A stretch of 64,000 nucleotides of DNA from Effrenium voratum (lineage: Eukaryota; Sar; Dinophyceae; Suessiales; Symbiodiniaceae), in assembly GCA_963377175.1 (NCBI GenBank), contig CAUJNA010001635.1:273907-337906 (forward strand), given 5' to 3'. Position 1 is the first letter of the stretch; each line of letters starts with the position of its first letter. This document shows positions 18,097-48,857 of this stretch, one piece after another. Position numbers and translations under genes: made by a program. Below the pieces are notes generated by a model, which searched no databases, had not been told where the DNA came from, and worked only from the letters and a program-made list of their open reading frames with translations.

Positions 18097-18514
18097 AGTA
18101 GTCGGGGGCCTCGCCTGGCAATGAATTGCTTCATACATACACCCCCCCCCTACAACTTTTTCCATCTTCCATCTTCTACCCTTATTCGTTTTCATCATTT
18201 TTCTACATTCCTTTCTGTCCATCTCATCCGTTTTTTCTCATCATTTTTCCAAATTTTTCGCCATCCTTTTCTCCTTCCTCCTCGCCTCATTCATTTCACC
18301 AACTACCCTTCAACATGTCATTTCCTCAATCTCCTCACCTCATCCATTTCAAAAAGTAAATTTTGCAAAATATATTGCAAACATATTTGTCATCAAAAAA
18401 ATATTTGAACTGTCTAAAAACGATTTGTCCATTTCTCGGACAAAAAATAGAACAGCAACAACATCACTCCCCTCCTTCGTTTCATCACGTTTATCATCAC
18501 TCCTAATCAGTAAA

Positions 18515-18544
18515 TGATACAATAGTGTTCATATTATTGTATCA
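18515..18544. terminator. Perfect 10-bp stem hairpin after TIR gene (left)
   Basis: TGATACAATA (18515-18524) and its exact reverse complement (18535-18544) enclose a 10-base loop. It lies immediately beyond the stop codon of the TIR zinc-finger gene. The same hairpin occurs in the right repeat. Its position suggests a 3'-end or transcript-stability signal, by inference. Confidence 0.6.
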
Positions 18545-18550
18545 ATCACT

Positions 18551-19018
18551 CTAAGTTTCCCTATGCTTCTCCATTATGTGTTTCTCCCATTGATACGGTA
18601 GAAAACTGGCTCTACATGTCAAGCACCTAAAATGCTTTTTGCCATCTATGATTTTGATTTCATCAGGTTCTGGCAGTTTCTCCTCAGGGTTCTCGCTTCT
18701 TCTCAGGTTTCCTTGATGCCATGCTGTTTTCTCGTGTCTTGCTTTGCTTTTTAGTTGCACTTCAACATCGCGTAACGAACAATACAGCATTCTTGTTTTG
18801 CATTCCTTCATGTATTCTCTTTGCCTTTCTTGGTATTTTTCAGGATTGTTCTTTCTACCTTCCCTTCTGTATTCTCTGTATTTTTCAGGCTTGTTGTGGT
18901 AGTGTCTTTTATTTTTTTGCTCTACATATATTGCAAGTCTTGAACTCTTCTTCAAACTTGTCGGCTTTTTGATTGAACATGCATGTGCTACAATACCTTC
19001 TTTCAATTTCCATCCTTA
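18551..19018 (-). pseudogene. TIR-borne zinc-finger protein, left copy (frameshifted)
   Basis: This copy matches the intact right-TIR gene (47933-48394) over its full length. An A run near 18914-18920 has seven A's where the right copy has five A's plus a G, which shifts the frame and stops translation after about 34 codons. The C-terminal part stays open (18551-about 18910) and carries the same conserved features: KNNPEKYQERQREYMKEC, a KSKARHEKTAWHQGN segment and a final CLTC-x12-H-x4-H finger. The first cysteine pair of the central finger is altered here (YCSLRDVEV against YCPLCDVEL on the right). A single-base error in assembly could also explain the break. Confidence 0.8.
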
Positions 19019-19262
19019 TTATCTATAGGTGTTCTCTCTTTAAGTGTAAATCCAAGCCTATAATTATGAAAAACATGTAGGCGTGGTGCTCCTTGTAGGA
19101 TTTTATCTTCAATATATAAAACGCTATACTTACATTATAATTATAACATATAATATTTTACATGTTATAATTATAGTATGGTTGAGAATTATGGGTTAAA
19201 ATAATGGTCAGGTAACAAGTCTTCAAATATGTAATCTACATATTTATATATGTCATCTTTAT

Positions 19263-19832
19263 CTATATATTTGATATTGTTTTTCCTATTGAATAAATAT
19301 ATTCCCAAAAGAATAAATACAACAGTAGACATACTTTATATTTAGTGTTGTAGTAATACCATACATGATATTTAGTTATTCTAAATTCATTCAAGACCTC
19401 GTTTATTTTATCTTTACTTAATAAATGCCAATCAATCGCTTCAAACATGTCTCGAATTTTTTAGCAAATGCTTTATATGGTTTAATTGCGTCTGTTCCTC
19501 CAAACCTTTTAATCAAACCGTTATTATTAAAAAAACTCATCAATTTCTTTTTCAAATGACTTTCTAGCAATTTTATGGTAAAAACATACAGGAAATCGTT
19601 TTTGATATCTCATAAAGACTTTCAACTGTAATTGAAACTTTGTATATCCCTTATCCTTATATTCTTCAACAAAAAACTTTTCAAGGTCTCTTGTTATACA
19701 GCATTGATTACAATATACATCATATTCACTTCTTTTACTACACAGATTAGCAGGTAATAAGTTATACAATGTAAAATTAATATCATTCTTTTTATTATTG
19801 CAACATTCGCACTTGTTATAGTTAAAAAACAT
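19263..19832 (-). pseudogene. Cysteine-rich viral protein, broken
   Basis: Translation starts at 19832 with a cysteine-pair-rich N-terminus (KCECCNNKK, then YCNQCCITRD), suggesting a small zinc-binding module. It then has a KFQLQLKVFMRYQKR segment. The frame ends after EKEIDEFF near 19527 and continues in other frames (NNGLIKRFGGTDAIKPYKAFAKK, then AIDWHLLSKDKINEVLNE) down to about 19263. At least two frameshifts in T/A runs are needed to connect them. No function recognised. A TATATTATAATAGAA box precedes the start, as in the two neighbouring duplicated genes. Confidence 0.5.
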
Positions 19833-19891
19833 TTCTATTATAATATATATATATAGTGTTTATTTCTTTAAATACTTTTTTACAAGAAATA
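19833..19891 (-). promoter_or_regulatory. Candidate promoter block upstream of cysteine-rich gene
   Basis: On the minus strand a TATTTAAAGAAATA-like box with a flanking TTTCTTGTAAAAAAG (about 19861-19891) is followed by TATATATTATAATAGAA directly before the ATG. The same two-part arrangement occurs upstream of the genes starting at 20470 and 21127, and the first box recurs at 26879-26909. Regulatory role is inferred from conservation and position. Confidence 0.55.
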
Positions 19892-20005
19892 AAATTAAAT
19901 ATTGAAATATAATAACAGATAATATTTACATGTTATTATTATATTATGATTATAATTTCAGTTCAGGATAACTATTTAATTGATACATCTTACCTCTTTC
20001 ATACA

Positions 20006-21182: not shown

Positions 21183-21245
21183 AATTTATACTTTTAATAA
21201 CTCATGTCTCAAAAATGCCCTGTCATAATTTTCAAAATAATAATA

Positions 21246-22096
21246 TTACTGTCCTAACTTCTTTTCAATCTTTGATATTTTGTAGGTTTGTTTAGTCCAT
21301 ACTCCTACTCTCTCCTTTTCATTTGGTCTCCTTTTCCTGAATATCTTAACTTCATTTCCTACATTTAAATCTGGATAAACTCTATTTCTTTTGGCTTTCA
21401 TACCTAAGTTTAAACTCACTTCTAATTGATGTTTAGGCTTTCTTGCTTCTGACGGTGTTAAGCCGTGCGAAGTGTGCTTTATTCCATTGTTATAAGTTAA
21501 TATAATTTCGTGTATGTAGTCTGTCCATTGAATAGCCTTTCCTTTTTCCTCATCGTTTTCAACCCTCTTAGACAAGCTATCTTTAAACGTCCTTATCGCC
21601 CTCTCCGCGAATGCTGGGTGTCCTCTGGTTCTGCGCAGCTCTATTTTTCACCTTTCAAGAAATCTATAACACTTTGATTGTTATAAGCTCCTTCATCGTC
21701 AATATAAATTAGTTTGGGCTTTCCACCCATTTTTTTTAATACATTCCATCAGTCCTGCTAAAATGTCCGCTGGCTGTTTTGACATAAGCGGGACAACAAC
21801 CATATACTTAGAAAATATGTCAATACACATCATACCAAGTTTCATTTTTTGTTTAGGGATATCATTAATGAAAAATAATTCAATTTGAAACTCATAATAT
21901 GCGTTAGGAGCTACAAATGAATTCTGTCCTCTTGGCTTGGCTTTCGTTCTACATTCTTCCTAAAAAACTCATTAATATCGTTTATAGTTATTGTGCTATC
22001 CTTTTTCCTGGCTTCTTGTAAAGTGCGGTTCTTTGACCCGAAGCCTCCCTTATCATAATAAACATTTCTAATTATATCTTCTTTACTATTGCTCAT
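21246..22096 (-). pseudogene. Retroviral-type (RVE) integrase of Polinton-like virus, frameshifted
   Basis: The N-terminal piece (start 22096) reads NVYYDKGGFGSKNRTLQEA, typical of Polinton-type integrases. It frameshifts near 21940 into a catalytic-core piece with FQIELFFINDIP, then CIDIFSKYMVVVPL. A further shift near 21735 gives LIYIDDEGAYNNQ, and another near 21655 gives RTRGHPAFAERAIRTFK. The remaining 21246-21575 frame holds the end of the core and a chromo/SH3-like C-terminal part (RNRVYPDLNVGNEVKIFRK). The second acid (DDEGAYN) and final glutamate (AFAERA) are visible. The position expected for the first catalytic aspartate is glutamate (QIELFF). With at least three frameshifts it is not functional as read. 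It explains the 5-bp target duplication around the element. Confidence 0.88.
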
Positions 22097-22114: not shown

Positions 22115-22812
22115 TTAATTTTCTTCTTGTTCTTGTTCTGGTTGTTCCATGGACTTTAAATAGTTTTGATGTCGCTTGCATTTTAAGTCTTGTGCCTTTC
22201 CCAAGTATTGAAAAGTGCTTCCGCAATCACAGACAACTTCCCTCTTTAACCAGTCTTGATGTCTTTCTAAATATTCCTTATGTTTTTTGTCAGTTCTGCA
22301 TTTCCCTTTTGCTCTCTTCATTTCTTTTGTTTCATTTGGCATTCTGTTTTATGTTCCTCTCTGTATTGTTTGCTGTTGTCCTTTAATTTGTCTTTGTGAC
22401 CTTCATAATACTTCTTCCACGACTGTTTCATATCTTCCTTGTGGTTTGCTTTGTATTCTCGGCATCTTTGTAAGTAGTATTGTTTGTTATCTTCATAATA
22501 TTCAGTTTTGGTTCTGCCTGCAACGTTTTTATTAACACAGTCTATGCTTTGTTGGTATTCCCCCTCCCTTGCTCTTAATTCTTCTTGATTTTGACACGGG
22601 TATTTTTCTAAAAGAAGTATCTTACAGTTATCAATTCCAAATTCTCTAAATAAATCAAATGACCTTGCATTCTTCCCTCCATTCTTCACATAGTTTTGAT
22701 ATGCCGCCCTATGTCTTGCCATTCTTTGGCTCAAGTCTTCGCAAGTAGAACCTATATAACATTTATTATATCCCGCATCTACGATTTTGTAGATTTTTTC
22801 ATATCTATTCAT
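22115..22812 (-). pseudogene. GIY-YIG endonuclease with C-terminal zinc-finger-like tail, one frameshift
   Basis: The start at 22812 gives KIYKIVDAG...CYIGSTCEDLSQRMARH, the GIY-YIG nuclease core: tyrosine in IYKI, YIGST, then the conserved arginine and histidine, and a glutamate-rich helix further on (LLLEKYPCQNQEELRARE). After residue 100 the protein is charged and repetitive (YYEDNKQYYLQRCREYKANHKED). The frame stops near 22318. A one-base shift continues into 22115-22342, which ends with VCDCGSTFQYLGKAQDLKCKRH, a zinc-finger-like tail often attached to viral GIY-YIG proteins. The nuclease part alone is open (164 residues). Such genes in viruses may act as homing or repair nucleases; the role here is unknown. 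An ATTTCTTTAAA-type box lies upstream at about 22829-22843. Confidence 0.85.
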
Positions 22813-22851: not shown

Positions 22852-24242
22852 TTATTTAGCACTACAATTGCAAGACCTACACCACGCTTCGCAGTTGTCT
22901 TTTTCATGTGCATATAGGTTGCATTTGCGTTGGGCTGTCATATTGCTATGAATTAGCCCATTGTTTATTTCTATTTCAAAGTCAGTTCCGCATTTATTAC
23001 ATCTTGTTCCAATTCTGTTAAGCAACCATTCAACATCTATATATTCATTTTCATTTATCTCCCTTTGAGACTTCATGTCTTGTAATTTATATTGTTTAAT
23101 CTTATGTTCTAAATATCTGGTTACTTGTGCTTCATTTAAATCAGTATCATCTATGTCTGCCTTGAAAAACTTGACTTTATTGATATCTCTGCACCTTGTA
23201 ATCGCTGTCCAAATCCACTCACGGCTGACCAAATGTGATTTATCCCATTCGTGTATAGTAATGCTTTTATCTACAGAAGCCCCTTGAGACGAATGACATG
23301 TAGCACAATACGCATGTATAAAGTGCTTGTCTAAAGTCGTGGTGTTTGTCATGAATATAGTTTTACTTTTGATATCTTGGATTTCTACTTTCCAATCATC
23401 AATACTAATAATTTCATAAGTAATATTTACATTAAACACCTGCCCCATTTCCTTCTTATAAACTCTGCATATCACATGCTCTCCAATTTCATATTTATCT
23501 GTCTTTCCTAAGTTATTTCTTACGGTTTTGCTCACCCATTTGCACCTAGCATTAGTATAGGCTATGTTATGCTCTCCTTCCATGATGTCGCTTGTAGTTT
23601 CAAACTGTTTATTTACTATTTCCTTAATGGGCAGTTTATTTTTCCAAATGTCATTATATATATATCATTCAATTTAATTTTATCTTCTTCTGTCTTAAGT
23701 CTCTTAGATATCTTAAGATAAATCTTATATTTAAATATTTGATTAAGAGAGTTGTTTAAATATGTCTCGTGGTCTTGGGTGTTAGTTAAACCAGCTATAG
23801 GTTTCAACTGCTTCCCGTCAGCAGTTCCTATAATTATCTTCTCTGGGTGCGTATCCTTAAACTCCCTAACTCTGTTCAAAATATAATTACCCGCCATACC
23901 TAGCTCATCAAACACAATACAATTATAATCAGAATGGTCAAATGTCGGTAGTCTTTCTCCAGCTTCTATTGGGATGCTAAAAAAATTGTTTAATGTTATG
24001 GCGTCGGCTTCGGTTTCTTGCTTCTGCTTGTTATTAGGACATACGAGTAACACATTATAACCTAGATTTTTCATATATTCGCCTATATAACTCTTGCCGC
24101 TTCCAGCCAGTCTTGCTTTTATCAAAACCGGATTACATGACACAATTTGCTCACAAATGCTTTTGGTGTCGTATTCGTCTTTAACACGAATTTTTACATT
24201 ATTGTAAGTCGGAATTTCTGATTAACCTTAATTTTGTATATA
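22852..24242 (-). pseudogene. SF1 helicase, C-terminal domain of the replication protein (frameshifted)
   Basis: Reading from the 5' side: DEYDTKSICEQI, then LIKARLAGSGKSYIGEYM with the Walker A (GSGKS) near 24100, CIVFDELGM as Walker B, and GTADGKQLKP as helicase motif III. A frameshift near 23640 leads to the piece starting about 23655. It holds an OB/SH3-like segment and the C-terminal helicase motifs (CHSSQGASVDKSITIHEW, WTAITRC). The tail adds two cysteine pairs (RCNKC and AWCRSC). This is superfamily 1 of the Pif1/RecD/UvrD type, acting in unwinding for DNA replication. It is continuous in order and strand with the pieces at 24243-26845, so all are probably one gene of about 1,330 codons. 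Confidence 0.85.
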
Positions 24243-25321
24243 TCGCTCGGTGGTGATACTTGTTTATTATCTTCAGCTCTCCATCCTCCCCTTTTGGTTG
24301 AAAACTTAATCAATGTTTTGGCCTTGTCAATATTTTCCTATCAATAATGAAGGCATCAGTTTTAACACTATGCACATTGATATTGTTGTTTTTCAATGTT
24401 TTATAATCTTTATGCACTTTAAAATTATGTCGTTGCATGAGTAGCTCTTTAATATACCTAAAGCCATTGGTTAAGTCTTTTTTGTTTGTCATTGTCAATG
24501 TGTAACATTTGATTTCTGATTCTTTCTCAACGTTTTTGATACCGTTTTTTTTCCATCTATAATTTTATAACATTCACGACCATGATTACGATAATACATA
24601 TTATTTTTCCAAAATTTATATGTACCACCATTAGAATTCCAGTACCTATCATCATCGTTATCATGAGCCTTAAATTCTAAAACCCATCCCTCGCCTATGT
24701 TCCTTTCTAATTCTTTAATATATTCATCTGTCATCTCTGTCAAAACCTTATCATCATAAAATCCACTAATCTTATTAATTCTTCCCCCATACAGATTTTG
24801 ATGATACAACGCTTCACTTAATGTATCAAATACTAAACTCTTCTGAGACTTGTTAGTTCCCTTTTCTAACAATCCGATATTTACATTCGAAATCAACTTC
24901 TTAACCTTGATGTCTTCACCTAAATTATTTGATATGTGAGTCTTCCATAGGTTCTCAACTATACTTTTATAATCTACTTCATAAATCGAAGAAGGCTTTT
25001 TAAAATATAAAATTTCGACTTCGTCAATAAACTCTCCTAAAAACATGCCATATATTAAATTATATTGTTTATTAAAAATAACGATGTTTGTTTTCCAGTA
25101 AACTTAACTAAGAATAAACATAATTCTCCCATGCTATTAAAATCATGTTTACCGCAGTCATAAGGCATCCAAATGTTAAATTGTTTAAATACTGGAATTT
25201 TTACGATTTTAGTTAAATTATGTGTGTATGCTTTGTTCTGGTTAATCTCTATATGTAATTCATTACTATGATAAAAGGAATGAAATTTACCAGCGGGTGC
25301 TACTGTCCTGCATCTGTTTCA
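24243..25321 (-). pseudogene. Central, polymerase-like region of the replication protein (frameshifted)
   Basis: After an in-frame TGA (25319-25321) the frame continues with PAGKFHSFYHSNELHIEINQ, NKAYTHNL, then frameshifts near 25065 into NLIYGMFLGEF and the 183-residue frame 24495-25046. Another shift leads to 24310-24498 with NNINVHSVKTDAFIIDRK. An acidic N-K-A-Y motif, an N-x-x-Y-G motif and a V-K-T-D motif in this order recall palm motifs A, B and C of DNA polymerases. I cannot name the family with confidence. It lies between an N-terminal region of unknown function and an SF1 helicase, a sensible layout for a viral replicase. Confidence 0.5.
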
Positions 25322-26845
25322 AATGTCTACATCAATGTCATTATAATAAGATTTATGCAGTGGATTAAATAATGATTTATTGAATTCAAACATCGCTCTC
25401 GACATCCTGTTATAGGTGTCTTCAGTTTCTACTGTCATACTTGCATTGAAGGCATCAATGAAATTTTGTGTTTTTATCCTGTATGTAATTATTCTTTTCT
25501 TAATCTTGAATTGAAACACCAGCTCCGAAATGATACACGCACTAAATTTAATTTTCGGGTTATATCCCGCCTGCTTTGCTTGATAATACATTTTCGCCAA
25601 ATCATTGCGTGTATATATCATTGTGTGTTCGTCCTGTTCGGTGTGTTTTAATATGTCATCCAGCTCTTCAATCATGATGCATTTAATGGGTTCCTCTCTA
25701 TGATTTAAATAAAAGTCGGTAGAAGCATTAACATTGATATTATACTCTTTCCGTATTCCTAAATTTGATTTCAATTGCTTCAAGTGCTTATTTAATGTAT
25801 ATATATGGTCATTCTTTATTAATGCGTAGAATGTTTTAATGGTATGGTTTCTTTTTGGTGGGTCAAATGTAAAACTCAAATTACCTACAATATCGAAAAT
25901 TCTGGCGGCGATGGCATACTCTTTAAATACCTTGTTCATGTCTTCTATTGAAGCACCGTGGTTATTGAATTCCTCGTCTGTTTTGTCTATGAGTTTCAAA
26001 ATACTCTCTCTGGTCATCTTCTTCATATTCGTCTTGTCCGTAAAAATCATTCAATGTGTTAATCCAACATTCGTTTTCAACATAATGCTTCACCTTAATG
26101 GCTTCCTCAAAAGTGCAATATTCTGGGTCGAGTTCTGTTTCCATATATCTATGAAAAATACCAATATTATTTGCGTTTTTAAGTTCTTCTTTTTAGGGTC
26201 ATAATCTTTAATATCTCCTTCTACCGTGTCGGCATCATAAATGACTACTGCATCTATATAGTGCTTCATTGTCTTGTAATGCCTAGCGATGTCGTCATCT
26301 TGCGCCAGTGTTTTAATAACCTTCTTAAAAAGGTTTTTGTCATACAGTCTAAAAATTCTCTTCTTGACTAATTCCTCTATCCATCTTCCAGTCTTCACTC
26401 CCGCATGCTTATCATCAAAATGCATGGGATAATATGTCCCGCCTTCAATGTCTTTAAACGATGCTTTTACCTTATGTGCTCCATATCCACTCATAGTAAA
26501 AAAACGAAATCCGATTGTGTAATCTCTGGGTTTTGTTTTGTGCCCTCTTGTTATGTTCTCCTGTTTGTTCTTTTTCATTCTTTCGCTTAGTGGTTCTCTC
26601 TCTTCATATGTGTTCATAACCTGGTCGTATTTGTGATTTGCCTTGCTCTTTTCATCCTCTGATTTTGCCTTTATGAAATCATTAACTATCTTCTCCGCTG
26701 TTGTGTATTGTGATATTTTCCTGTCGGTGTATAATCCTATAATGTCTCTAACCTTTGCCTTTTGTTGTGTTGATAAATTCCCCTTGTTCCTTTCGAGTTT
26801 GCTTTCTAAAGAGTTAATATTTCTTTTTACAGCTTTTGATGTCAT
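25322..26845 (-). pseudogene. N-terminal region of the viral replication protein (frameshifted)
   Basis: The start at 26845 gives a basic, helical N-terminus (MTSKAVKRNINSLESKLERNK), a YTDRKISQYTTAEKIVND helix, then a beta-rich part (YTIGFRFFTMSGYGAHKVKA) and YIDAVVIYDADTVEGDIKDY. Frameshifts near 26145 and 26020 connect to METELDPEYCTFEEAIKV and then to the 243-residue frame 25319-26050 (RESILKLIDKTDEEFNNHG...SELVFQFKIKKRIITYRIKT). No family recognised for this part. Together with the polymerase-like and helicase parts it forms the largest gene of the element. A TATTTAAAGAAATA-type box is 35-65 bp upstream of the start. Confidence 0.6.
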
Positions 26846-26878
26846 AATAATATTTATATTATATATTTTATAGTGTCA

Positions 26879-27297: not shown

Positions 27298-29441
27298 TTA
27301 TTTAGATTTTTTCTTTTTCAATAATTTAGTTTCCAAATATTCTACGCGATGGATTAGTTTTGATAAAGCATCCCAACTAATACAAGCCATTCTGTCATAA
27401 CACATCGTTAAGTATTCTCCTGTATCATTTACAATATTATATTTAGGATTTGTGTATTGTTGAACATCTTGAGCAATCCATCCTAATTCAGTTTTTCTGG
27501 TTTTTTGATTTTTAACAAATGTTTTAATCTTAATGCTTTTTACCATATTTATAGTATCATCTTCTACATCTTCTATATTATCTTTCAGTCTCTTATCACT
27601 ACTTAAATTAAATCCATTGAATGATGAAAAATGTGTATCGTCCAATTGTAAATATTTAGTGCCATCAATATAACTATCAATAGTTGTTGATGCTTCTAAT
27701 CTTAAAACAGCATCACTATTTAAATGTCTCAAATTGATTTTATGAGCAATTCCAAAAGTCACATCACCGTCCAGTCGCCTCGTAATTCGCTATTACTTCC
27801 ACTATTCAAAATAATTTTATTATCAGCATATGTTGCAGATAATCCAACAACCAAATTAATAGAGTTTGAAGTGTTGCTATTCCTAATTATTAAATCATTT
27901 GTCTCGAGATACATTTCAGCATTACCAATTATTAGTTTTGATGTGTTGCCAAATTGAACATTGCCACTCGGTGAATTTTGTAATAATAAAGAATTTCCTG
28001 ACACAGACTGAACTTGGTTGACTTCAACTTTCTTACCAGAAACCATTGTTAAATCGCCGTTTGTATACACATCACCTAATACATCAACTGGTTTATTGAA
28101 TATGGTTTTTGATACAGCGCCGTCGCACATAAAATGCTGATTAGAAGAACTACTAACATCACCAACACTAACAGCAACAAAATTATTATGTGCCATATAT
28201 AAACCTTCTGTAGCATCTGGTGTATATCTTCGTATTGAACCATTATTAGCAAAATTTAAATATGAACCATTATTAAGACTTACTGCGTTGTCAGTTCCTA
28301 CAAACTGAACAGCACTGGTAAATCTCGCTTGGCCTGCACAGTTTAAAACATAACCAGAAACACCAACAGCACCTAAACCAAACCTATCCTTAACCCAGAC
28401 ACGACCAACATTAGCATCTCCTATTTGAGTTTCCCATTGACCTCCTGAACTACTCATCCACATTCTGCCATCTCTATTAATATGAAATTCTCTGTTAAAC
28501 ATTACGAATTGAATGTGTAATCCATTACTTGGTGCCCTATAATTATTACAAAATAAAGTATTACCAGTAACCATTGTAATAGAGTCATGAAATGTAACCG
28601 GACCGGATACTGATTGATTGCTTAAATCTAGTTTATCTAATTTTTGTAAATCCGTTGCTAATAAACTATTGATAGTATTTGAATTTTGAGTTACTAATAA
28701 ATCTTGTGTCGTGTTGTCTGATATGATTGAGGCAAATGTATTACTGTATGCAGTATTTGTTTTGAATAAATTAGTATCATTTGTATATAATGTTGATACA
28801 TCTGCTTGAATAGTTGTTTTTTCGGCTGTAGTCCAAGAAGCACCCGCTCCTGCTTGTAAATCTGCTATATCTGTTAAAATCGGCTGATATTGTGTTTCCG
28901 TGTCCTGTTATTAGTGAAGAATTTGAACTTATATTATTGAAGTTTGAAGTGATTGTATTATTGGAATTTCCTACTAAGAATGTATTAGAACTAATAGTAT
29001 TGAAGTTTGATGTTATTGTAGCATTTAAATTACTGATTAAAAAAGTATTAGAGCTAATATTATTAGCATTTGTGTCAAGCTTAATTGTATTTGCTGATAT
29101 GGTCGGTAGTATTGAAGTTATGGTTAATCCGTGTGCTGTTATATTATTAAGGTTGCTTGTAATTGTTGTGTTTTGATTTACTTGTTCGTCAAACATTGTT
29201 GTTGATGTTGCGTTAATTCCTGATATTGCTGATATGTTTGCATCTATCTTATTTTTTGTGCTAAAATAAGAGCATCAACTTCTTCAATTGTATAACCTCC
29301 GCCTAATGAACCTGCTGTGTCTGCTAATTCTTGCTTTGTAGCATAAACACTGCTTAAGGTTGATGGTTCTGTTGAATTTATTAATACTAATTCGCTTGCT
29401 ATAATTCTGCTTGAGCCATCCAATGATAATGTTGAAAACAT
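27298..29441 (-). pseudogene. Fibre/spike protein with C-terminal peptidase S74 chaperone, frameshifted
   Basis: The likely start is the ATG at 29441 (MFSTLSLDGSSRIIASELVL). The first 300 or so codons are rich in short repeats of the type TISSNTFLISNLN, a trimeric coiled-coil or beta-helix pattern. The middle (27759 to about 28890) is Gly/Asn/Ser-rich and beta-structured, like viral receptor-binding fibres. The C-terminal piece (27298-27762) has SSDKRLKDNIEDVEDD and ELGWIAQDV, the hallmark of the S74 intramolecular chaperone that cleaves itself off after trimerisation. Frameshifts near 29265, 28905 and 27765 connect the pieces; the full protein would be about 714 residues. It probably formed the host-binding fibre of the virion. 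It is transcribed away from the neighbouring split zinc-finger gene's end on the same strand. Confidence 0.82.
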
Positions 29442-29469: not shown

Positions 29470-29778
29470 TTATATTCTACCTTTTTTTCCTCTTGAACCA
29501 AATATACATTTATTTAATGCATTGTATTTTTCTTGCTTCTGTCTCAAATATTCATTTTGCAACAATTGGTAATGCTGTGCTATATTTTGTAGCGGGTTTG
29601 GAGGCGGTTGTGGTTGCATTCTTCTTGGGGGTGGTGTGTTCGCTATTATATTATTTGTTACTGGTTGTTGTGGAACATGTTGCTCTTCTTCGTTGTGCGC
29701 TACTTCGTGACGCGCCACTTCGTTGTATTCTACCTTTTGGGGTTTTGCTATTGGAACTGCTTTTGGTTTGATTGATTT
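29470..29778 (-). pseudogene. 3' half of viral zinc-finger gene split by copia insertion
   Basis: This codes for the C-terminal part of the protein whose N-terminal half lies at 37884-38164. It is Pro/Gln-rich (TPPPRRMQPQPPPNPLQ), then helical (YQLLQNEYLRQKQEKY), and ends with a basic tail (IFGSRGKKGRI). It joins in frame with the other half once the retrotransposon and one target duplication are removed, giving 194 residues. At present it is fused in frame to 11 codons from the LTR. Confidence 0.85.
29774..29778. repeat. Target site duplication of the copia element, left copy (GATTT)
   Basis: GATTT directly precedes the left LTR (TGCAAACC...). The same five bases follow the right LTR at 37884-37888. 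Five bases is the usual duplication length for Ty1/copia integrase. Confidence 0.95.
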
Positions 29779-29878
29779 TGCAAACCTCCGGGGCGCCTTT
29801 TCCTCCTTCAAAGCATTAAAGGGTCTGCGGGAATCGGTTCATCCGCATGGTCAACACAAGAAGTGCACACCTCATGCA
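29779..29878 (-). repeat. 3' LTR of copia element
   Basis: 100 bp, from TGCAAACCTCCGGGG to CCTCATGCA on the plus strand. It differs from the other LTR by one base (AAGTGCAC here, AAGCGCAC there). It contains an ATG that opens a frame running out into the viral gene. Confidence 0.96.
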
Positions 29879-29888
29879 CCCCCCCTTG
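29879..29888 (-). other. Polypurine tract of copia element
   Basis: On the minus strand AAGGGGGGG lies directly before the 3' LTR, the expected place for the plus-strand primer of reverse transcription. Confidence 0.7.
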
Positions 29889-29968
29889 GCACTTTGTGCC
29901 AACTGCAAAATGCATGGCTTCGAGCTTCTATACTGCTCTCGGCCACCCTTGCGCTCATTGGCGCCAGC

Positions 29969-32850: not shown

Positions 32851-32879
32851 AGCTCACCCACCACCGGGATGTCCACCTT

Positions 32880-33437: not shown

Positions 33438-33480
33438 ACCTTCCAGCCCCCCCGGAGCTGGATGCTCTTCTTCCCTTCTC

Positions 33481-33912: not shown

Positions 33913-33967
33913 CCTGTTCCTTTGATCGCCTCGTCCAGCGCCCCCGCTCCTCCAACTCCAGGTCCTC

Positions 33968-36129: not shown

Positions 36130-36150
36130 TCCGCATAGGCCTCCTTGGCA

Positions 36151-37659: not shown

Positions 37660-37816
37660 CGTCCGCCACCAGCTCGCCCCCGGCCAGTGCCCGGCTCTCC
37701 TCGACTTCCCTGCCAGGGCTTACCTGGCCGGACCGTCGCCGCCTCATCACCTCCATGTGCGCGAGCGGCTTGGGCTCATAACCTGCAAACCTCCGGGGCG
37801 CCTTTTCCTCCTTCAA
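37493..37816 (-). CDS. Start of copia Gag, initiating inside the LTR
   Basis: The ATG at 37816 lies inside the 5' LTR and reads MKEEKAPRRFAGYEPKPLAH across the primer-binding site. A frame running from LTR into the body with no nearer start suggests translation begins in the LTR. It shifts into the 36151-37659 frame near 37500-37520. Confidence 0.55.
   Translation of the reverse strand: MKEEKAPRRFAGYEPKPLAHMEVMRRRRSGQVSPGREVEESRALAGGELVADDGEDPEMGEPMEGDDILEVHSADGRASTREASTARSARSSSRTRETSPRPQAGHG
37772..37783 (-). other. Primer-binding site of copia element
   Basis: Directly after the 5' LTR the minus strand reads GGTTATGAGCCC. This is complementary to the anticodon stem-loop region of initiator methionine tRNA (GGGCUCAUAACC), not to a tRNA 3' end. 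Drosophila copia is known to be primed by a half-tRNA-iMet at the same place; the same mode is inferred here. Confidence 0.7.
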
Positions 37817-37883
37817 AGCATTAAAGGGTCTGCGGGAATCGGTTCATCCGCATGGTCAACACAAGAAGCGCACACCTCATGCA
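37784..37883 (-). repeat. 5' LTR of copia element
   Basis: 100 bp, TG...CA, one mismatch to the other LTR. It contains the start codon of the Gag frame (37816). Confidence 0.96.
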
Positions 37884-37888
37884 GATTT
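37884..37888. repeat. Target site duplication of the copia element, right copy (GATTT)
   Basis: It follows the CA end of the right LTR and is identical to 29774-29778. Confidence 0.95.
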
Positions 37889-38164
37889 AATTGGTTTAGA
37901 TTCTAATGGTCCTTGACAGTTTTTTTCGTGGCTGTATCTGTATGATTTTAGTGTTAAAGTTTTGGCACATTTTGGACAGGTTATTTTCTTTTCATTGCGT
38001 GCTTGAGTTTTTGAGTTGTTTTTAAGTGGCTCTACTGGTTTCGCTTCTGTTGGTGCTTCTATTGTTGGTTCTGCCTTTGGTGCTTCTTCTTCAATTGGTG
38101 GTAATTCATTTACTGGCTCGTCTGCTTCAATTGTATTAGTAATTTCAGGTTCAACTTCTGACAT
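37884..38164 (-). pseudogene. 5' half of viral zinc-finger gene split by copia insertion
   Basis: It starts at 38164 with an acidic, Pro/Glu-rich N-terminus (MSEVEPEITNTIEADEPVNE, EAPTEAKPVEP). A zinc finger follows, ITCPKCAKTLTLKSYRYSHE then KNC (C-x2-C-x11-H-x3-C). The frame breaks at the TSD and resumes at 29778. The combined protein of 194 residues would be an acidic-finger-basic virion or DNA-binding protein; no family recognised. Confidence 0.85.
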
Positions 38165-38277: not shown

Positions 38278-39110
38278 TCAATTATCTAATTGAAAGAGAA
38301 TGCTAAAAGAAATGGGAACGCCGTGAAAATCAATTAATTCGTTTCTTGAAGTTGTTATTCTAAAGTGTAGTCTCTTAATATTTTTACCGCCTACATCAAT
38401 AAAATCTGCATATATGGGCGCCCAAGTTGTTGATTGATTTGAACTTTTTTAATTACTGAACTGCTGAAATTATTAGGTGCTGAATATTTATAATCGCTTA
38501 GTTGAGGACAATTTATGTATATATTATGAAAAGGAACTCAATTAAAGTATCCACTTAACCAAGATGACGCAGGATCATAGGCAATATAATACTTAATAAA
38601 TAATTAATAGATTTTGGTCTTAAATTGTCATATTCAAACTGTCCTCTGTTCCATTTGCCATGTACATAAGTTTCTAATTCTTCATCTGTAGGTATTTTTG
38701 ATTTTGTAATTTAGAGGGTCGTTGAGTTTCAAGTCCATGCGTCTCTCGCTCTGTCCATATACTGTTAAGAATAAGTCAGGCACAATATCATTAAATGCCG
38801 TGTTTAATTCCGTTTGTATTTTGTATGATAATTGATTGGCATAATAAATTTCACCGGATACATCAACGGCAGTGCTTCTTAATAAGACATTGGAACTATT
38901 GTACAACATAATATAGAAGCGTTCGTAAAACCCTTTCTCTGTTGTATAAAACGGAGTGCTAAATGAACACTCTGTCACGAACATTTTTGTTCTTGGTGGA
39001 ATTTCAAAGTTTTGGTCAAGTTCTATAATAAAATCGCTGGTAGAATTGCTTTCTGATAATCTGTAAGCACTATCAACATAGACTTTTTTATATGTTAATC
39101 TGTCACTCAT
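38278..39110 (-). pseudogene. Penton / minor capsid-like protein, frameshifted
   Basis: The start is taken at 39110 (MSDRLTYKK); an ATG five codons upstream is also in frame. KKVYVDSAYRLSESNSTSDF and ELDQNFEIPPRTKMFVTECS match the N-terminus of single-jelly-roll penton-type proteins of Polinton-like viruses (DSxYR, SxSDFxxEL, then a TEC/D-type strand). The frame stops near 38682 and continues through several shifts with PTDEELETYVHGKWNRGQF, INCPQLSDYKYSAPNNF and a final HGVPISFSILFQ, the expected C-terminal strand. About 275 residues in all. It would form the capsid vertices together with the major capsid protein. Confidence 0.75.
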
Positions 39111-39152
39111 AAATATAATATACAATAGAAATTATAATATAAGTATTATTAT
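39111..39152. promoter_or_regulatory. Short divergent promoter between penton and lipase genes
   Basis: Only 42 AT-rich bases separate the minus-strand penton-like start from the plus-strand lipase-region start, with ATAATATACAATAGAAATTA and ATAATATAAGTATT in it. Two promoters must overlap here. Confidence 0.4.
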
Positions 39153-39933
39153 ATGATAGGAATACAATTATTATTAGGTGCTATTGAAGGCAGGACACCT
39201 ACACAAATAATGGCAGGTGTAGCAAGTGATAAAGCATATACAGCAGGTAAGGATTTAATAGAAGATGTATTTTTTAATCATAAAAAGACATTGGAAGACA
39301 AAATAGGAAGGTTCAATAAACATTTTGATAAGCAGATAATGAAACATAAAACACGCTATGCTGAAGAAATCAATGTTCAAAATAAAAAATAAAATCGATG
39401 ATGTCAAGGGTTTAGACGCAGCCTATTCAAATGTGAATGGAAAAACAAGAATAGGCAACACATTATATATTGGCGGCACCGGTGCTAAAACGGGACTAAA
39501 TCACAAAGTCAATGATGTCATTGCAGATTTGTTTTTTATTCCTACTCATAATGTTCAATTAAGCGAAATATATAAAGACGCAATGGAAGAATTATGTAAA
39601 AATCCAGATGTGAATAGAATTGTTGGTCACAGTTTGGGCAGTTCCGTTGTTCAAGAAATCAACAACAGACACGGAAACAAATATGCTACTACTGTTTATT
39701 CATCACCTTTTGTATCGGGGATTAATCAACAGAAAAACCCGCGACACTTACGATTTAGAAATCGTGGAGACCCTATAGCAATGTTCGATGACGCGGCAAT
39801 AACTGGAGAAATAGAAAGCAATCATTTATTAGATAAACACAGTTTCAATAATTGGACAGGACAAGGTATGACTGAAATAAACCCTACTACGAACATTTCT
39901 AATGGATTCAACCCGAATGATAATTCGGGTTAA
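39153..39933 (+). CDS. Lipase-like alpha/beta hydrolase with N-terminal extension (one frameshift)
   Basis: The first 79 codons (MIGIQLLLGAIEGRTPTQIM...) are helical and begin hydrophobic, possibly a membrane anchor. They run into an A run at 39384-39392. Deleting one A there connects them to the 39358-39933 frame (KIDDVKGLDAAYSNVNGKTR). That frame holds VNRIVGHSLGSSVVQEI, the GxSxG nucleophile elbow of class 3 lipases, with NRGDPIAMFD and LLDKHSFNNW as candidate catalytic aspartate and histidine. Lipase genes are known from some Polinton-like viruses and may help entry or exit through membranes. The lipase core itself is unbroken. Confidence 0.8.
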
Positions 39934-40669: not shown

Positions 40670-42256
40670 ATGGATAATATAATTGCAGAAAGTGAAACTA
40701 CAATGATTAACTCGTTAAATTTTGGACTTCCGGAAACAGCACAATACATCACAGACCGACGACACGTTCATTATTTTCCATCAGGTAGCAATGTCTATAA
40801 TCCAAATGCAGGAAACAAAAATACTAGATTTCATATATCAGGAGAAGACAACACATATATTGATTTATCAAGTATTCGTTTATTTGCAAATCTTCAAAAC
40901 ACTGACGGAACACGAAGTCATTTTTTACGACCGTTAGGTAATTTGTCATCCTTCTTCAGTCGTTATAGATGCACTGTAGGCGGGCAACAAGTTCAAGATA
41001 TTATTGAATACAATAGGCACAGTGAATTGTATAATTCCTTTAAAAGTCAAGATGCCCGAGATATGGATGATTTAGAAGGCGGTGCTAATCCTCGCTGGGA
41101 TGATGACTGGCGACATACATATGCTACTGGACTGGCAGAAATGTTAGATGTCAATAAACGAACCAATCCCGCTACTGCCGACGCTACAGCAGCTACATTT
41201 CCAACAACTAGAGACCATAACAATTGGGGAGACTTAACGGCACGATATACTCGCCATTCAGTTGCAGGAATTCCCGGCGCTAATGGTTATATGAGATTAG
41301 GACATAAACCAGTATGCGGATTGTTAGAAAGCAATTATTATTTACCTCTTCGTTATGCACCACTTGAACTGGAATTTACACTCGTATCAGATGAACATAT
41401 ACCAGTCATTACACCATTTGCTAAAACCGATGACAATGTTCATATTGATGCAAATGGTTATTATTTCACAACTGGAGACACCAGCACCTCGTTTGAATTG
41501 AATAACGTAATCATTCGTGCAGAATGCATAAGCCTCGACAATACGGTCAACAATAATATAGTAAAACATTTGTTAGAGGGTCAAAGTTTGAAATTAGTAT
41601 TTGCAATGTATCACACTATGACACAATCATTCAACGCGACAGGAACTGAAATTAATATGAATATTGTAAAATCCGCTTCTAAATTAAATGGTTGCTTCAT
41701 TACATTGTATCGTGCGCCAAGAGCAGGTGTAGATGCTGATAATAATAATTACTACAGACACGATAATTATATTTACAAGAGATGGAATTATTTTTACAAT
41801 CCTATGATTAATTCTCGTATTTTTGATGGTGCTGACCCTGATGGCGCTGGTCGTGAGCGTTTCCGCGGTAAAGGCTTTCAAAATCCTGAATTAGATTTGA
41901 CTTGGCAATTACAAATTAATAATAAGAAATATCCAGAGTTTGAATGTCAATCAATGGCAGAAACCGCATATTATTTAAAACGAGCATTAAGTTATATGAA
42001 CCCTGACCAAGATGCCTTTAGTATTTCATATAAGCAGTTTAGAGAAGATAAATTTGTTATCGGCGTATCGTTCGAGAAAATGAATCAGACTCATTTTACA
42101 GGCCAGAATACGAAACAAGGAGGCTTACTCGTTTTTAAATTGAAAGGGTCAAACAAGTCATTCACAACAGATGAAGATGTGCGCGAAATATTTGTGCATA
42201 TGATTTCGGAGTCTGTTCTGGAATTACGCGAAAGTGGCTCCGTTTTGTATGATTAA
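40670..42256 (+). CDS. MCP: Major capsid protein (double jelly roll type)
   Basis: An intact 528-residue frame, about the usual length for Polinton-like virus capsid proteins. N-terminal features: DRRHVHYFPSGSNVYNP, then TRFHISGEDNTYIDLSSIRL and LRPLGNLSSFFSRYRCTVGG with QQVQDIIEYNRHSELY, the conserved first strands of these capsid proteins. The second half has YYLPLRYAPLELEFTLVSD, a short strand pair before the second jelly roll, and a C-terminal EDVREIFVHMISESVLELRE. It would assemble as trimers forming the icosahedral capsid. It is the largest unbroken viral gene and heads the plus-strand structural cluster. Confidence 0.9.
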   Translation: MDNIIAESETTMINSLNFGLPETAQYITDRRHVHYFPSGSNVYNPNAGNKNTRFHISGEDNTYIDLSSIRLFANLQNTDGTRSHFLRPLGNLSSFFSRYRCTVGGQQVQDIIEYNRHSELYNSFKSQDARDMDDLEGGANPRWDDDWRHTYATGLAEMLDVNKRTNPATADATAATFPTTRDHNNWGDLTARYTRHSVAGIPGANGYMRLGHKPVCGLLESNYYLPLRYAPLELEFTLVSDEHIPVITPFAKTDDNVHIDANGYYFTTGDTSTSFELNNVIIRAECISLDNTVNNNIVKHLLEGQSLKLVFAMYHTMTQSFNATGTEINMNIVKSASKLNGCFITLYRAPRAGVDADNNNYYRHDNYIYKRWNYFYNPMINSRIFDGADPDGAGRERFRGKGFQNPELDLTWQLQINNKKYPEFECQSMAETAYYLKRALSYMNPDQDAFSISYKQFREDKFVIGVSFEKMNQTHFTGQNTKQGGLLVFKLKGSNKSFTTDEDVREIFVHMISESVLELRESGSVLYD

Positions 42257-45029: not shown

Positions 45030-45794
45030 TTATTCATCATTTGTAATTTGAAATGCCTGTTCAAAATTGATATGAAACATTTTGTTAATGTCCTTTGAAT
45101 TCATATTCACGTAGAAAAAAGAATATGGAGCAAAATTAACGGCTTGATGGTACATATCTAATAATTGCTGTTTATCAACAATGGCACTATTTTCTTCAAT
45201 AAAACTCATTAATTCACTGGCATTTTTTAACCTAAAAATATATAATCAACTGGCATTTAAACGAATGATAGGCGCCAAATCATTGTATTTTTGTGTTGAA
45301 CAAATCACACTTACTGCATCGTGCCTGCCTCTTGTAAATACTCCATGTAATAATGTACTATATCTAACAAATTTAGGGTCGTCTGCGTGGTCATCTATAA
45401 CGATTAATATTGAATGTAGTTTCTTTATCTTTTTAGACTTCATATAGTTAATAATTTTCTTCTGTCTTTCGATTACATTTTCTAAATCTGCTGGATTATA
45501 ATTATCAAAATAAATTTGTTCTTTTTCATCATCCACGTGCAATTCATCCCTGATGTATTTTTTAACTTCTGTAATTGTAGGGTCGTTATGGACACTGGGG
45601 GAAAATATAAATATTCTTGCAAATGAATTTCTATAAACATTCAATCTTAAATCTTGAATAAGGACAGTCTTACCGCCTGTCGAAGAAGCAACTATAATAC
45701 TTCTAAATGGTAATTTTGGCACGTGGTCATATTTGGATTGCTTGAGTTCATATTCAGTTATGTTTATTGGTTTTATTATTGGAACATCTGTCAT
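45030..45794 (-). CDS. A32-like FtsK/HerA packaging ATPase (with in-frame insertion)
   Basis: It starts at 45794 (MTDVPIIKPINITEYELK). RSIIVASSTGGKTVLIQDL holds the Walker A (A-x4-GKT). ILIVIDDHADDPKF is the Walker B. TRGRHDAVSVICSTQKYNDL is the conserved RGRH...STQ region of viral genome-packaging ATPases. At 45246-45248 a TGA stops the frame, but the same frame continues afterwards to 45030 with NASELMSFIEENSAIVDKQQ. Around the stop a short near-repeat is visible (RLNAS, then stop, LYIF, RLKNAS). A 33-nt in-frame insertion, once removed, would leave about 243 residues, normal for this family. The enzyme drives DNA into the capsid. Confidence 0.88.
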
Positions 45795-45863
45795 AGTTGA
45801 TCTTAAAGATATATAGAAAATTATATTTACAAATTAACTTGTAATTAATATTAAATGGAACAT

Positions 45864-46161: not shown

Positions 46162-46223
46162 AAATACTTAAGCTAGGAATACACAATATATCAAAAATAA
46201 AAATTGTAAATATTAATATATAA

Positions 46224-46542
46224 ATGGGAAAAAAGAAAAAAGAGTAAAGGCAAAGAAAGACCAATGCCAGATATTGAAGCACGGAAAGAAACAGCAGAAA
46301 GGGTTAAATCACTGGGCGAAAGTAAGGCTATAAAATGTGATAAATGTAATCACGTAATGAATTTTAAAAATGAATTGACAGTAGATAAGAAAGGCGGAGT
46401 GAAGGTTAGTTGTATTCCTTGTATGTTTTCTTATAAAAGCTCAGATAAGGATTTGAATATTGAGAACAAAACAGGTGGCGATATGGTTGTTGAAACTAAT
46501 GAACATTTGATTAATGTTAGTTTTAACAGGGACTTAAGTTAG
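46224..46542 (+). CDS. Zinc-ribbon protein, shift in N-terminal A run
   Basis: The ATG at 46224 reads MGKKKKE and stops. A one-base change in the A run (about 46228-46240) connects to SKGKERPMPDIEARKETAER. The open part from 46264 has IKCDKCNHVMNF and KVSCIPCMFSY, two CxxC pairs about 28 residues apart that form a zinc ribbon. A short acidic tail follows. Possibly a transcription factor or small DNA-binding protein; unproven. Confidence 0.6.
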
Positions 46543-46622
46543 TATTTAAAGAGTAGATTTAGCCTAATTGCACTTTAAAAATATATAATTAAGTAAATAA
46601 TTATCTAACAAAATATATAGTA
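46541..46622 (+). promoter_or_regulatory. Candidate promoter with both recurring boxes
   Basis: TATTTAAAGAGTA (about 46541-46555) is followed by TTATCTAAC about 20 bp before the ATG at 46623. This is the one place where both motif classes occur in front of the same gene. Confidence 0.4.
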
Positions 46623-46943
46623 ATGTCTGAAAATGATAATTATACTATTAATGATTTAATGAATAAGATAACATTAATTGGTAAAAATATCAAACACTTA
46701 AATGATATGATTAAATCCATTGATGACAAAATGAAACCAGTTGAGCGCAATGAAGATAAAGAAAAAATCAAAAAGATATTTGAAAGCCGTGGCTTGGGTC
46801 GTCCGCAGGGCAGTTATGAAACAAAACAAAAGACATACTGTGAAATGTTGAATAGTAATAAAATCAAACAACCAAAGCAACAAACATTAGAGTTTTATAA
46901 AATTACAAAAAATGATGATGGAGTATATGTATTATTTGAATAA
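46623..46943 (+). CDS. Viral protein with coiled coil and GRPQGSY motif
   Basis: An intact 106-residue frame. The first half is a likely coiled coil (ITLIGKNIKHLNDMIKSIDD). The second has KIFESRGLGRPQGSYETKQK, where the GRP may insert into the minor groove like an AT-hook, and ends with FYKITKNDDGVYVLFE. No firm family. Tightly packed between neighbours. Confidence 0.65.
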   Translation: MSENDNYTINDLMNKITLIGKNIKHLNDMIKSIDDKMKPVERNEDKEKIKKIFESRGLGRPQGSYETKQKTYCEMLNSNKIKQPKQQTLEFYKITKNDDGVYVLFE

Positions 46944-46968
46944 TTAATATCTAAGTAATTCTAATAAT

Positions 46969-47579
46969 ATGAATTTATTAGAATTATTTAGCGGAACAAA
47001 AAGCGTCGGAACCATAGCAAAGTCGCTTGGATTTAATGTAATATCATTAGACTTGAAAAATGCTGATATCGACACTGATATTTTGGAGTGGGATTACAAA
47101 CAGTTTGACAGAAACCATTTTGATTTTATTTGGAGTAGTCCCCCATGCACTGAATATAGTGTAGCAAAAACTAGGGGAATTAGGAATATCGAATATGCAA
47201 ATAGTATTGTCTTAAAAACTATTGAGATTCTCAAATATTTCAATCCTAAATATGTTGTACTCGAAAATCCACAAACTGGATTATCAAAAATCGGGAGTTT
47301 ATGGATGAGTTTGATTTTAAAGATGTAGATTACTGTAAATATGGTTTTCAGTATAGAAAGAGGACTAGGCTATGGAATAACATTACAACTTGGAAACCTA
47401 GAGATTTATGTAAAAAGGATTGTGGCAACATCAGGAATAGTAAACATATTGAAACAGCACAACGGCTACCATCGGGCACCAAGGAAAAATGGGGAGACAA
47501 TCCAAAAATACATAAACAAGAAGACCTATATGAAATACCTAGCGAATTAATTTGTGAAATCTTAGTGAGTTTGAATTAG
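46969..47579 (+). CDS. C5 cytosine-specific DNA methyltransferase (one frameshift)
   Basis: MNLLELFSGTKSVG is motif I. IWSSPPCTEYS is motif IV with the catalytic cysteine, and KYVVLENPQTGL is motif VI. A one-base shift near 47295 leads to MDEFDFKDVDYCKYGFQYRK then RTRLW, motif VIII. The C-terminus includes a target-recognition-like part (KDCGNIRNSKHIETAQRLPS). At about 203 residues it is shorter than bacterial enzymes, like other virus-type C5 methyltransferases. It could methylate viral DNA; the host of dinoflagellate type would add its own modification systems, but that is speculation. An ATCTAAG box precedes the start by 20 bp. Confidence 0.87.
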
Positions 47580-47665
47580 GAGGAGTTCATCACAACATCC
47601 ACCATCATTGCATTCATTGCGGGGAAAGGCGGAGCCTTTTATAGGGAAAATGCACCACTCATGGC

Positions 47666-47751
47666 TTTGAGCGCTACCTCTCGTGGGTTTGAGTGCTACC
47701 TCTCGTGGGTTTGAGTGCTACCTCTCGTGGGTTTGAGTGCTACCTCTCGTG
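47666..47751 (+). repeat. 22-bp GC-rich tandem repeat, about 4 copies
   Basis: Units beginning TTTGAGTGCTACCTCTCGTG start at 47666, 47688, 47710 and 47732; the first differs at one base and the last is cut short. It is markedly GC-richer than the surrounding viral DNA and sits just inside the right inverted repeat, with no counterpart inside the left one. Confidence 0.92.
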
Positions 47752-47932
47752 AAATTGAGTAGTTTTATACTATGATTATAGCATTTATACCCTTATATGT
47801 TATAATTATAATGTAAGTATAGCGTTTTATATATTGAGGATAAAATCCTACAAGGAGCACCACGCCTACATTTTTTTCATAATTATAGGCTTGGATTTAC
47901 ACTTAAAGAGAGAACACCTATAGATAATAAGG

Positions 47933-48394
47933 ATGGAAATTGAAAGAAAGTATTGTAGCAAATGCATGTTCAATCAAAAAGCCGACAAGTTTGAAGAAGG
48001 GTTCAAGACTTGCAGTATATGTAGAGCAAAAAGTAAAAGACTCTACCACAACAACCCTGACAAATACAGAGAATGCAGAAGGGAAGATAGAAAGAACAAT
48101 CCTGAAAAATACCAAGAAAGGCAAAGAGAATACATGAAGGAATGCAAAACAAGAACGCATTACTGTCCATTATGTGATGTTGAATTGCAACTAAAAAGCA
48201 AAGCAAGACACGAGAAAACAGCATGGCATCAAGGAAACCTGAGAAGAAGCGAGAACCCTGAGGAGAAACTGCCAGAACCTGATGAAATCAAAATCATAGA
48301 TGGCAAAAAGCATTTTAGGTGCTTGACATGTAGAGCCAGTTTTCTACCGTATCAATGGGAGAAACACATAATGGAGAAGCATAGGGAAACTTAG
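47933..48394 (+). CDS. TIR-borne zinc-finger protein, intact copy
   Basis: 153 residues. N-terminal finger: RKYCSKCMFNQKADKF then FKTCSICRAKSK (C-x2-C...C-x2-C). Central charged repeat KYRECRREDRKNNPEKYQER. Second finger YCPLCDVELQLKSKARHEKT then AWH. C-terminal finger FRCLTCRASFLPYQWEKHIM then EKH (C-x2-C...H-x4-H). Three zinc fingers suggest nucleic-acid binding. A copy in each repeat doubles its dosage, and genes in terminal repeats are often early-acting. Family not named. The left copy is frameshifted. Confidence 0.8.
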   Translation: MEIERKYCSKCMFNQKADKFEEGFKTCSICRAKSKRLYHNNPDKYRECRREDRKNNPEKYQERQREYMKECKTRTHYCPLCDVELQLKSKARHEKTAWHQGNLRRSENPEEKLPEPDEIKIIDGKKHFRCLTCRASFLPYQWEKHIMEKHRET

Positions 48395-48400
48395 AGTGAT

Positions 48401-48430
48401 TGATACAATAATATGAACACTATTGTATCA
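48401..48430. terminator. Perfect 10-bp stem hairpin after TIR gene (right)
   Basis: TGATACAATA (48401-48410) pairs with TATTGTATCA (48421-48430) around a 10-base loop, right after the zinc-finger gene's stop codon. It is the mirror of 18515-18544. Confidence 0.6.
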
Positions 48431-48857
48431 TTTACTGATTAGGAGTGATGATAAACGTGATGAAACGAAGGAGGGGAGTGATGTTGTTGCTGTTCTATTT
48501 TTTGTCCGAGAAATGGACAAATCGTTTTTAGACAGTTCAAATAATTTTTGATGACAAATATGTTTGCAATATATTTTGCAAAATTTACTTATTGAAATGG
48601 ATGAGGTGAGGAGATTGAGGAAATGACATTTTGAAGGGTAGTTGGTGAAATGAATGAGGCGAGGAGGAAGGAGAAAAGGATGGCGAACATTTTGGAAAAA
48701 TGATGCGAAAAAAACGGATGAGATGGACAGAAAGGAAATGAAAGGAATGTAGAAAAATGATGAAAACGAATAAGGGTACAAGATGGAAGATGGAAAAAGT
48801 TGTAGGGGGGGGTGCATGTATGAAGCAATTTATTGCCAGGCGAGGCCCCCGACTACT

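Follow-up and report, generated by a model that had tools for sequence, protein, structure and literature searches.

A Polinton-like virus integrated in the genome of Effrenium voratum and interrupted by a Copia-like retrotransposon

Introduction

The closest described counterparts of the element considered here are the integrated Polinton-like viruses (PLVs) of dinoflagellates and cryptophytes. The element occupies positions 18,097 to 48,857 of a 64,000-nucleotide stretch of DNA from the dinoflagellate Effrenium voratum (assembly GCA_963377175.1, contig CAUJNA010001635.1, forward-strand positions 273,907 to 337,906); this whole stretch is called the window, and all positions given below refer to it. 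In Polarella glacialis 2,535 PLV capsid genes have been reported, and dinoflagellate capsids are placed in a separate cluster, the 'Dino group' (Bellas et al. 2023, PMC10120064). As described in that account, the elements of this group resemble the present one in being integrated, capsid-bearing, AT-rich, high in copy number and bounded by inverted repeats, with retrotransposons near or inside them. On these described traits the element is a candidate for the group; what differs is that here the structure is known down to the two target-site duplications and the Copia-like element lodged inside. A second dinoflagellate example, OmPLV of Oxyrrhis marina, is likewise low in GC, is said to be fragmenting and has Ty1/copia nearby (Haro et al. 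2025, PMC12721341). It is described as relying on a tyrosine recombinase and as lacking a target-site duplication, unlike the five complete elements read here, all of which carry 5-bp duplications.

The PLVs of cryptophytes, as presented by Bulzu et al. (2025, PMC12220804), resemble the Effrenium element, in which integrase and GIY-YIG are putative assignments, in having a retrovirus-type integrase with duplications of 4-6 bp, S74 fibres (given there as a widespread PLV trait), GIY-YIG genes and nested GC-rich retrotransposons of 4-9.5 kb, and the same source cites a Copia element inside a Guillardia PLV. According to that paper the cryptophyte PLVs are without lipase genes, whereas here a lipase-like open reading frame (ORF) sits beside the capsid gene and the host is a dinoflagellate. 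A further parallel comes from the EMALEs, endogenous viruses of low GC in which GC-rich retrotransposons are nested (Hackl et al. 2021, PMC8547959). These are virophages, and their Ngaro guests are described as tyrosine-recombinase retrotransposons that prefer virus DNA, whereas the insert here is Copia-like and none of its seven other copies considered lies in matching virus DNA. Finally, Maverick elements of Breviolum minutum are reported to be enriched at chromatin-domain borders (PMC11071213).

Copy expansions and nested retrotransposons are thus already published, and the present locus is a well-resolved PLV, less complete than an initial annotation of the window, made from the sequence alone, had held. 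It consists of two nested integration events, both marked by a 5-bp duplication, and for the inner event uninterrupted sister copies serve as controls. We consider it very probable that the locus is an integrated PLV of about 22.7 kb, likely brought in by a retrovirus-type integrase of its own and interrupted by an 8.1-kb Copia-like retrotransposon, and that it belongs to a family which likely spread as a virus and of which this copy has likely decayed.

Ends and copies of the element

The element is bounded by terminal inverted repeats of about 1.09 kb, which are 95.3% identical over 1094 aligned columns; a separate alignment gives 38 substitutions in 1080 columns, a divergence of 3.5%. Directly outside both repeats lies the sequence AAAAC. 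The initial annotation had recognised the integration of a Polinton-like element, its inverted repeats and the AAAAC duplication, and is borne out on these points; its repeats are present at the ends it gave, its length of about 1.06 kb being slightly short. The AT-rich body that it described is incorrect. GC is 0.49-0.52 in the flanks and 0.31-0.32 in the viral parts, as against 0.61 in the retrotransposon, which went unmentioned. With this insert removed the virus measures 22,656 bp, or 22,651 bp when the duplicated GATTT at the insertion is counted once.

Is the five-letter duplication at a single locus more than a coincidence? The host assembly that was searched comprises 1,155,904,702 bases in 3699 contigs. 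A query with the outermost 404 bases of the repeat gives 40 scored matches among 382 candidates, and all of the 20 junctions that were read begin AGTAGTCG. Facing end pairs within 21-31 kb are found in five places, namely this locus and four others of 21.4, 21.9, 22.2 and 23.5 kb. Each of these four has an exact 5-bp duplication of its own (TTATT, ATATT, TAATT and GTATG), which together with AAAAC makes five out of five. The duplication is therefore more than chance, and the combination of inverted repeats with a short target duplication by which PLVs are known is present.

The locus is not alone in its genome. The capsid gene gives 40 scored matches of 704 candidates when the host assembly is searched for other copies, as the initial annotation had envisaged; this locus is included, and the others are 87-94% identical. 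Along the right arm, between capsid and ATPase, copies mostly share 85-94% identity, with the methyltransferase side varying or missing. Beyond this genome, 363 relatives of the capsid protein were found; of 120 listed, four carry a source name, and all four are 'Skav' models, a prefix used with Symbiodinium kawagutii. Some virus ends have identical host flanks (contigs C2002 and C1562, contigs C2446 and C1207, and contig C475 twice, 28 kb apart). No empty host site was seen in the same assembly with the left flank, which alone of the two was searched; the other assembly matches of this flank are to a short simple repeat only.

The nested retrotransposon

The GC-rich block inside the virus is bounded by long terminal repeats (LTRs), 100-bp direct repeats that differ by one mismatch, lie 8005 bases apart and show TGCA at both start and end. 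These LTRs thus have the form TG...CA and adjoin a 5-bp duplication, GATTT. The same holds in other copies of the retrotransposon: the far LTR was located at the guessed distance in three of seven, and all three have TG...CA ends and exact 5-bp duplications. Within the block an RVT_2 reverse transcriptase is matched at E 1.9e-7 (31.4 bits against a Pfam cut-off of 31.6), and upstream of it on the same strand are rve (E 0.031) and a zinc knuckle (E 0.012), both below cut-off. The matches stand in the domain order of Copia elements.

The sister copies show the site as it is without the insert. A 400-bp query laid over the left junction matches from end to end at this locus only, among 40 scored of 702 candidates; 32 of the scored matches cover the viral half only and seven the retrotransposon half only. 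In ten out of ten copies examined over about 400 bases each, taken from the 32 viral matches, the two viral sides are contiguous with no LTR between them. The two sides overlap by exactly five bases in five of the ten, as would be expected of an unoccupied site with a single GATTT; in the other five the match stops before the edge. The viral ORF pieces on either side of the insert probably represent a single viral ORF that the retrotransposon has cut. Two other accounts of the block were discarded: host or viral cargo is refuted by the LTR structure, by GATTT and by the absence in all ten sisters, and carriage of the retrotransposon by the virus to its other copies was not seen, the junction being spanned at this locus only among the 40 scored matches of 702 candidates. 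As for timing, the LTR divergence of 1/100 and the inverted-repeat divergence of 38/1080 do not separate the order of the two insertions (Fisher P 0.25).

Close to the insertion, 29579-29769 is 98.5-100% identical to copies on contigs C3357 and C3359. The best capsid match, by comparison, reaches 94% and the best match of the inverted repeat elsewhere 95%, so that copies may be mosaic.

Capsid, selection and mode of spread

The 528-residue ORF that had been annotated as capsid protein is open, and its identity comes from a predicted fold. It has no Pfam family match, and a structure model built from 34 sequences has a mean predicted local distance difference test score (pLDDT) of 56. Among solved structures the model finds PBCV-1 at E 9.5e-13; among viral models the Tetraselmis viridis virus S1 protein stands at rank 5 with E 2.2e-12, and the fold search also reaches the Sputnik capsid. 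The model thus points to the double-jelly-roll major capsid protein that is expected of a PLV. The A32-type packaging ATPase, likewise expected, is matched by PF04665 in this copy and at E 2.4e-12 in a sister.

Are these genes in use, or are they carried along? Among six loci (15 pairs) the ratio of nonsynonymous to synonymous divergence (dN/dS) of the capsid gene is 0.12-0.16 with a median of 0.13, at a silent divergence of 0.23-0.44; two of eight loci were dropped, one as split and one missed by the start-motif filter. For the ATPase the median is 0.07 and the range 0-0.19 across 66 pairs of 12 loci, the remaining six of the 18 matching loci not being one open frame. In both cases the pairs include near-identical copies and are not independent. 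Ratios so far below 1 do not fit neutral drift in the host alone, which would push them towards 1. Since the differences between copies in these two genes are largely silent, the family is likely to have spread as a capsid-making virus. On the simplest reading of these sequence comparisons, elements that make capsids would have entered or been mobilised again and again over a long period, and this copy would be among those that died. If rates are alike, the 3.5% between the ends of this copy would suggest a younger age than that of its divergence from the sisters sampled (dS 0.27-0.34).

An alternative is that the family spreads in the nucleus as a transposon only, its capsid genes being passengers and its copies duplicates that arose within the host genome. 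The high copy number within one genome would suit this, as would the host flanks common to three junction sets and the lack of a free relative in IMG/VR; moreover, the OmPLV of Oxyrrhis has been argued, in the account cited above, to be turning transposon-like (PMC12721341). A dN/dS of about 0.13 in the capsid gene and 0.07 in the ATPase gene would, however, be difficult to maintain if the capsid were not used. Also contrary to it is the capsid tree, in which this genome's copies fall among copies from other assemblies. This tree holds 39 sequences, namely the window copy, 33 of the 120 listed relatives, one trimmed Skav model and four own-genome loci (two of six intended were missed by the motif filter); its root is arbitrary and it includes no known PLV. 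Spread as a transposon alone is accordingly rather unlikely in our judgement.

What of the retrotransposon itself? A family specialised for landing in these viruses, as Ngaro is in Cafeteria virophages, would be in keeping with its position inside a virus here and with published accounts of virus-loving retrotransposons (PMC8547959). The other copies speak otherwise: in all seven the left flank has a host-like GC of 0.49-0.64 and no match to the virus, two of them sharing one flank. The insert thus belongs to a separate retrotransposon family without a visible liking for these viruses, and we regard specialisation as very unlikely.

There remains the condition of this copy. The helicase, integrase, ATPase, methyltransferase and fibre regions are each spread over more than one frame at this locus, so that the near-complete gene set of one uninterrupted virus, as initially annotated, does not describe it. 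The sisters are in better order. Among 20 right arms, 18 have an ATPase match (one of the other two is ended by the contig end), and 12 of these 18 hold it as a single frame of at least 254 residues; the methyltransferase is one ORF in eight of ten sister loci with a match, and the capsid in six of seven other loci. Because these genes are open in most sisters, broken frames are no general feature of this assembly, although errors confined to this locus are possible; the copy has likely decayed and is likely inactive. That the locus is instead one complete and possibly working provirus, with sequencing errors for split frames and host or viral cargo for the GC-rich block, is highly improbable, the open capsid gene and the frame errors documented for a published PLV (PMC10120064) being outweighed by an LTR element with its own duplication that is absent from ten of ten sisters and by an ATPase that is open in 12 of 18 sisters of the same assembly.

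The course of events favoured here would then run as follows. The virus integrase would join the viral ends to target strands cut five bases apart, and so would leave a 5-bp duplication such as that at the five complete elements read; the family, in many copies, would spread as a capsid-making virus; this copy would later decay, with its genes becoming split and its inverted repeats diverging by 3.5%; and a retrotransposon whose other examined copies lie in host-like DNA would land in one viral ORF, be it before or after the virus reached this place.

Several points weigh against this account and are best taken together. The confidence of the capsid model is low, and its fold matches have template modelling (TM) scores of only about 0.3-0.5. 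The integrase is weakly backed by its profile and is read from this broken copy only. The RVT_2 match of the insert sits slightly below its curated cut-off. Three junction sets have common host flanks, and the copy number thus partly reflects duplication of host DNA or haplotypes left uncollapsed. IMG/VR yielded no free relative, whether by single sequence or by alignment. Finally, assembly errors may lie behind the broken frames seen here, the published PLV just mentioned offering one documented case.

The family offers a means of testing viral against transposon spread in the Polinton-like elements of dinoflagellates, with the low dN/dS of the capsid favouring the virus, and its assembled copies are numerous enough for such a test to be made genome-wide.

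Gene content

The features of the locus are collected in Table 1. Among the genes named in the initial annotation, the packaging ATPase, the C5 methyltransferase and the S74 fibre are all upheld by Pfam, the first two being split in this copy and the fibre region lying in several frames. The integrase and replicase-helicase fare less well, as each is split and all of their profile matches fall below cut-off. In the integrase, stretches with the motifs D, D and E, presumably its catalytic residues, can be picked out by eye in two frames. Protein-primed PolB and a cysteine protease, the marks of a Polinton/Maverick in the strict sense, had no Pfam match among the scanned ORFs of this broken copy. 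The lipase, penton and GIY-YIG assignments lack profile support and depend on motif or likeness judged by eye; similar pieces of the penton-like ORF occur in two of eight capsid loci. The predicted structure of the lipase-like ORF has a pLDDT of 32.8, too poor for fold comparison, and a sequence search of the PDB with the capsid, integrase and lipase gave nothing trustworthy. A gene model of Symbiodinium kawagutii (P0031) has a lipase-like part fused to a capsid protein. As the corresponding genes are adjacent in the window, this gene order is common to different genomes.

The combination of genes had also been put forward as the possible mark of a distinct lineage. This is weak, given that S74 fibres, GIY-YIG and DNA methyltransferase are among the genes reported in PLVs (PMC12220804, PMC10120064) and that the methyltransferase side of the element differs between copies of one genome.

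Table 1. Features of the integrated element and its insert (window positions; a stop marks features without strand)
Feature	Position	Strand	Basis or remark
Target-site duplication AAAAC, left	18092..18096	.	directly outside left inverted repeat
Left terminal inverted repeat	18097..19179	+	pairs with 48857-47767
Zinc-finger-like ORF, left repeat, 151 aa from TTG	18551..19006	-	no Pfam match
Retrovirus-type integrase remnant, two frames	21246..21959	-	rve_3 E 0.11, below cut-off; motifs by eye
GIY-YIG-like ORF	22318..22812	-	by eye only; Pfam gives DUF123 at E 1.7
SF1-type helicase region, split over two frames	22852..24221	-	AAA_30 E 1e-4, UvrD_C_2 E 5e-4, below cut-off
ORF run without assigned function, possibly replicase	24310..26875	-	no trustworthy Pfam match
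Fibre-like region, several frames, C-terminal Peptidase_S74	27298..29274	-	PF13884 E 9e-11 at 27298-27789
Viral ORF piece, one side of insert	29470..29778	-	ORF list
Retrotransposon target-site duplication GATTT, left	29774..29778	.	adjoins left LTR
Copia-like LTR retrotransposon, 8105 bp	29779..37883	-	LTRs 29779-29878 and 37784-37883
Retrotransposon target-site duplication GATTT, right	37884..37888	.	adjoins right LTR
Viral ORF piece, other side of insert	37889..38164	-	ORF list
Minor capsid (penton)-like ORF	38682..39125	-	by eye only; no Pfam match
Lipase-like ORF, GHSLGS motif	39358..39933	+	Hydrolase_4 E 0.022, below cut-off; start shorter than in sisters
Major capsid protein (by predicted fold), 528 aa, open	40670..42256	+	fold matches to double-jelly-roll capsids
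Two conserved ORFs, function unassigned	42847-43659, 44078-44497	+	kept in sister right arms
A32-type packaging ATPase, split here	45030..45833	-	PF04665 E 8e-10
Two small conserved ORFs	46264..46943	+	sister right arms
C5 DNA methyltransferase, split here	46948..47579	+	PF00145 E 4.7e-9
Right terminal inverted repeat	47767..48857	-	alignment with left repeat
Zinc-finger-like ORF, right repeat, open, 153 aa	47933..48394	+	ORF translation
Target-site duplication AAAAC, right	48858..48862	.	directly outside right inverted repeat

The zinc-finger gene of the inverted repeats

The least known feature of the element is the zinc-finger gene that is present in both inverted repeats; a limited literature search found no paper on such a gene in PLV inverted repeats, or on this element. 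The ORF sits in a stretch of about 580 bases, at repeat positions of roughly 402-983, and the first part of the left ORF differs from that of the right, its start region having changed. When five sister right ends were compared, L027 alone had this stretch, and the other four consist of the outer 401-410 bases followed by different sequence. Of the gene combination put forward in the initial annotation, this gene does distinguish the window copy, together with L027, from four sisters. Among the 20 right arms there is one more weak match to the protein, at 27.8% (L021), which was not counted as a cassette. A protein search returned three relatives among 13 candidates, and the two of these that were scanned have no Pfam family at cut-off.

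Near the inner edge of the repeat, where copies diverge, the motif GCGTGGTGCTCCTTGTAGGATTTTA occurs with variants (in the window repeats and in L009, L018, L023, L026 and L027), and it may be a module boundary.

Between the two repeats there is an identical run of 261 bases, longer than random placement of the changes would give (P 0.00085), which hints at copying between the ends. With as many as five other copies as outgroup (a single one past the first 400 bases or so), 21 of the changes are assigned to the left repeat and 13 to the right, with four undecided. A tentative and rather unlikely suggestion is that the family is still re-invading its host, that the repeats are sites at which cassettes are exchanged, and that the zinc-finger gene, which has almost no known relatives, was captured into both ends and is kept alike by copying between the ends, its product acting, at a guess, on those ends in integration or replication.

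Other repeats in the window

Just inside the right inverted repeat, 47654-47751 contains a 22-bp tandem repeat of 4.5 copies. In the left viral arm, 19827-20529 and 20464-21188 form a direct duplication of some 0.7 kb with 79% identity. Long simple repeats occupy window positions 1-1975, 7799-8959 and 48979-49700, with (CATA)n at the start of the window and CA-rich arrays both within the left flank and some 120 bases away from the right junction.

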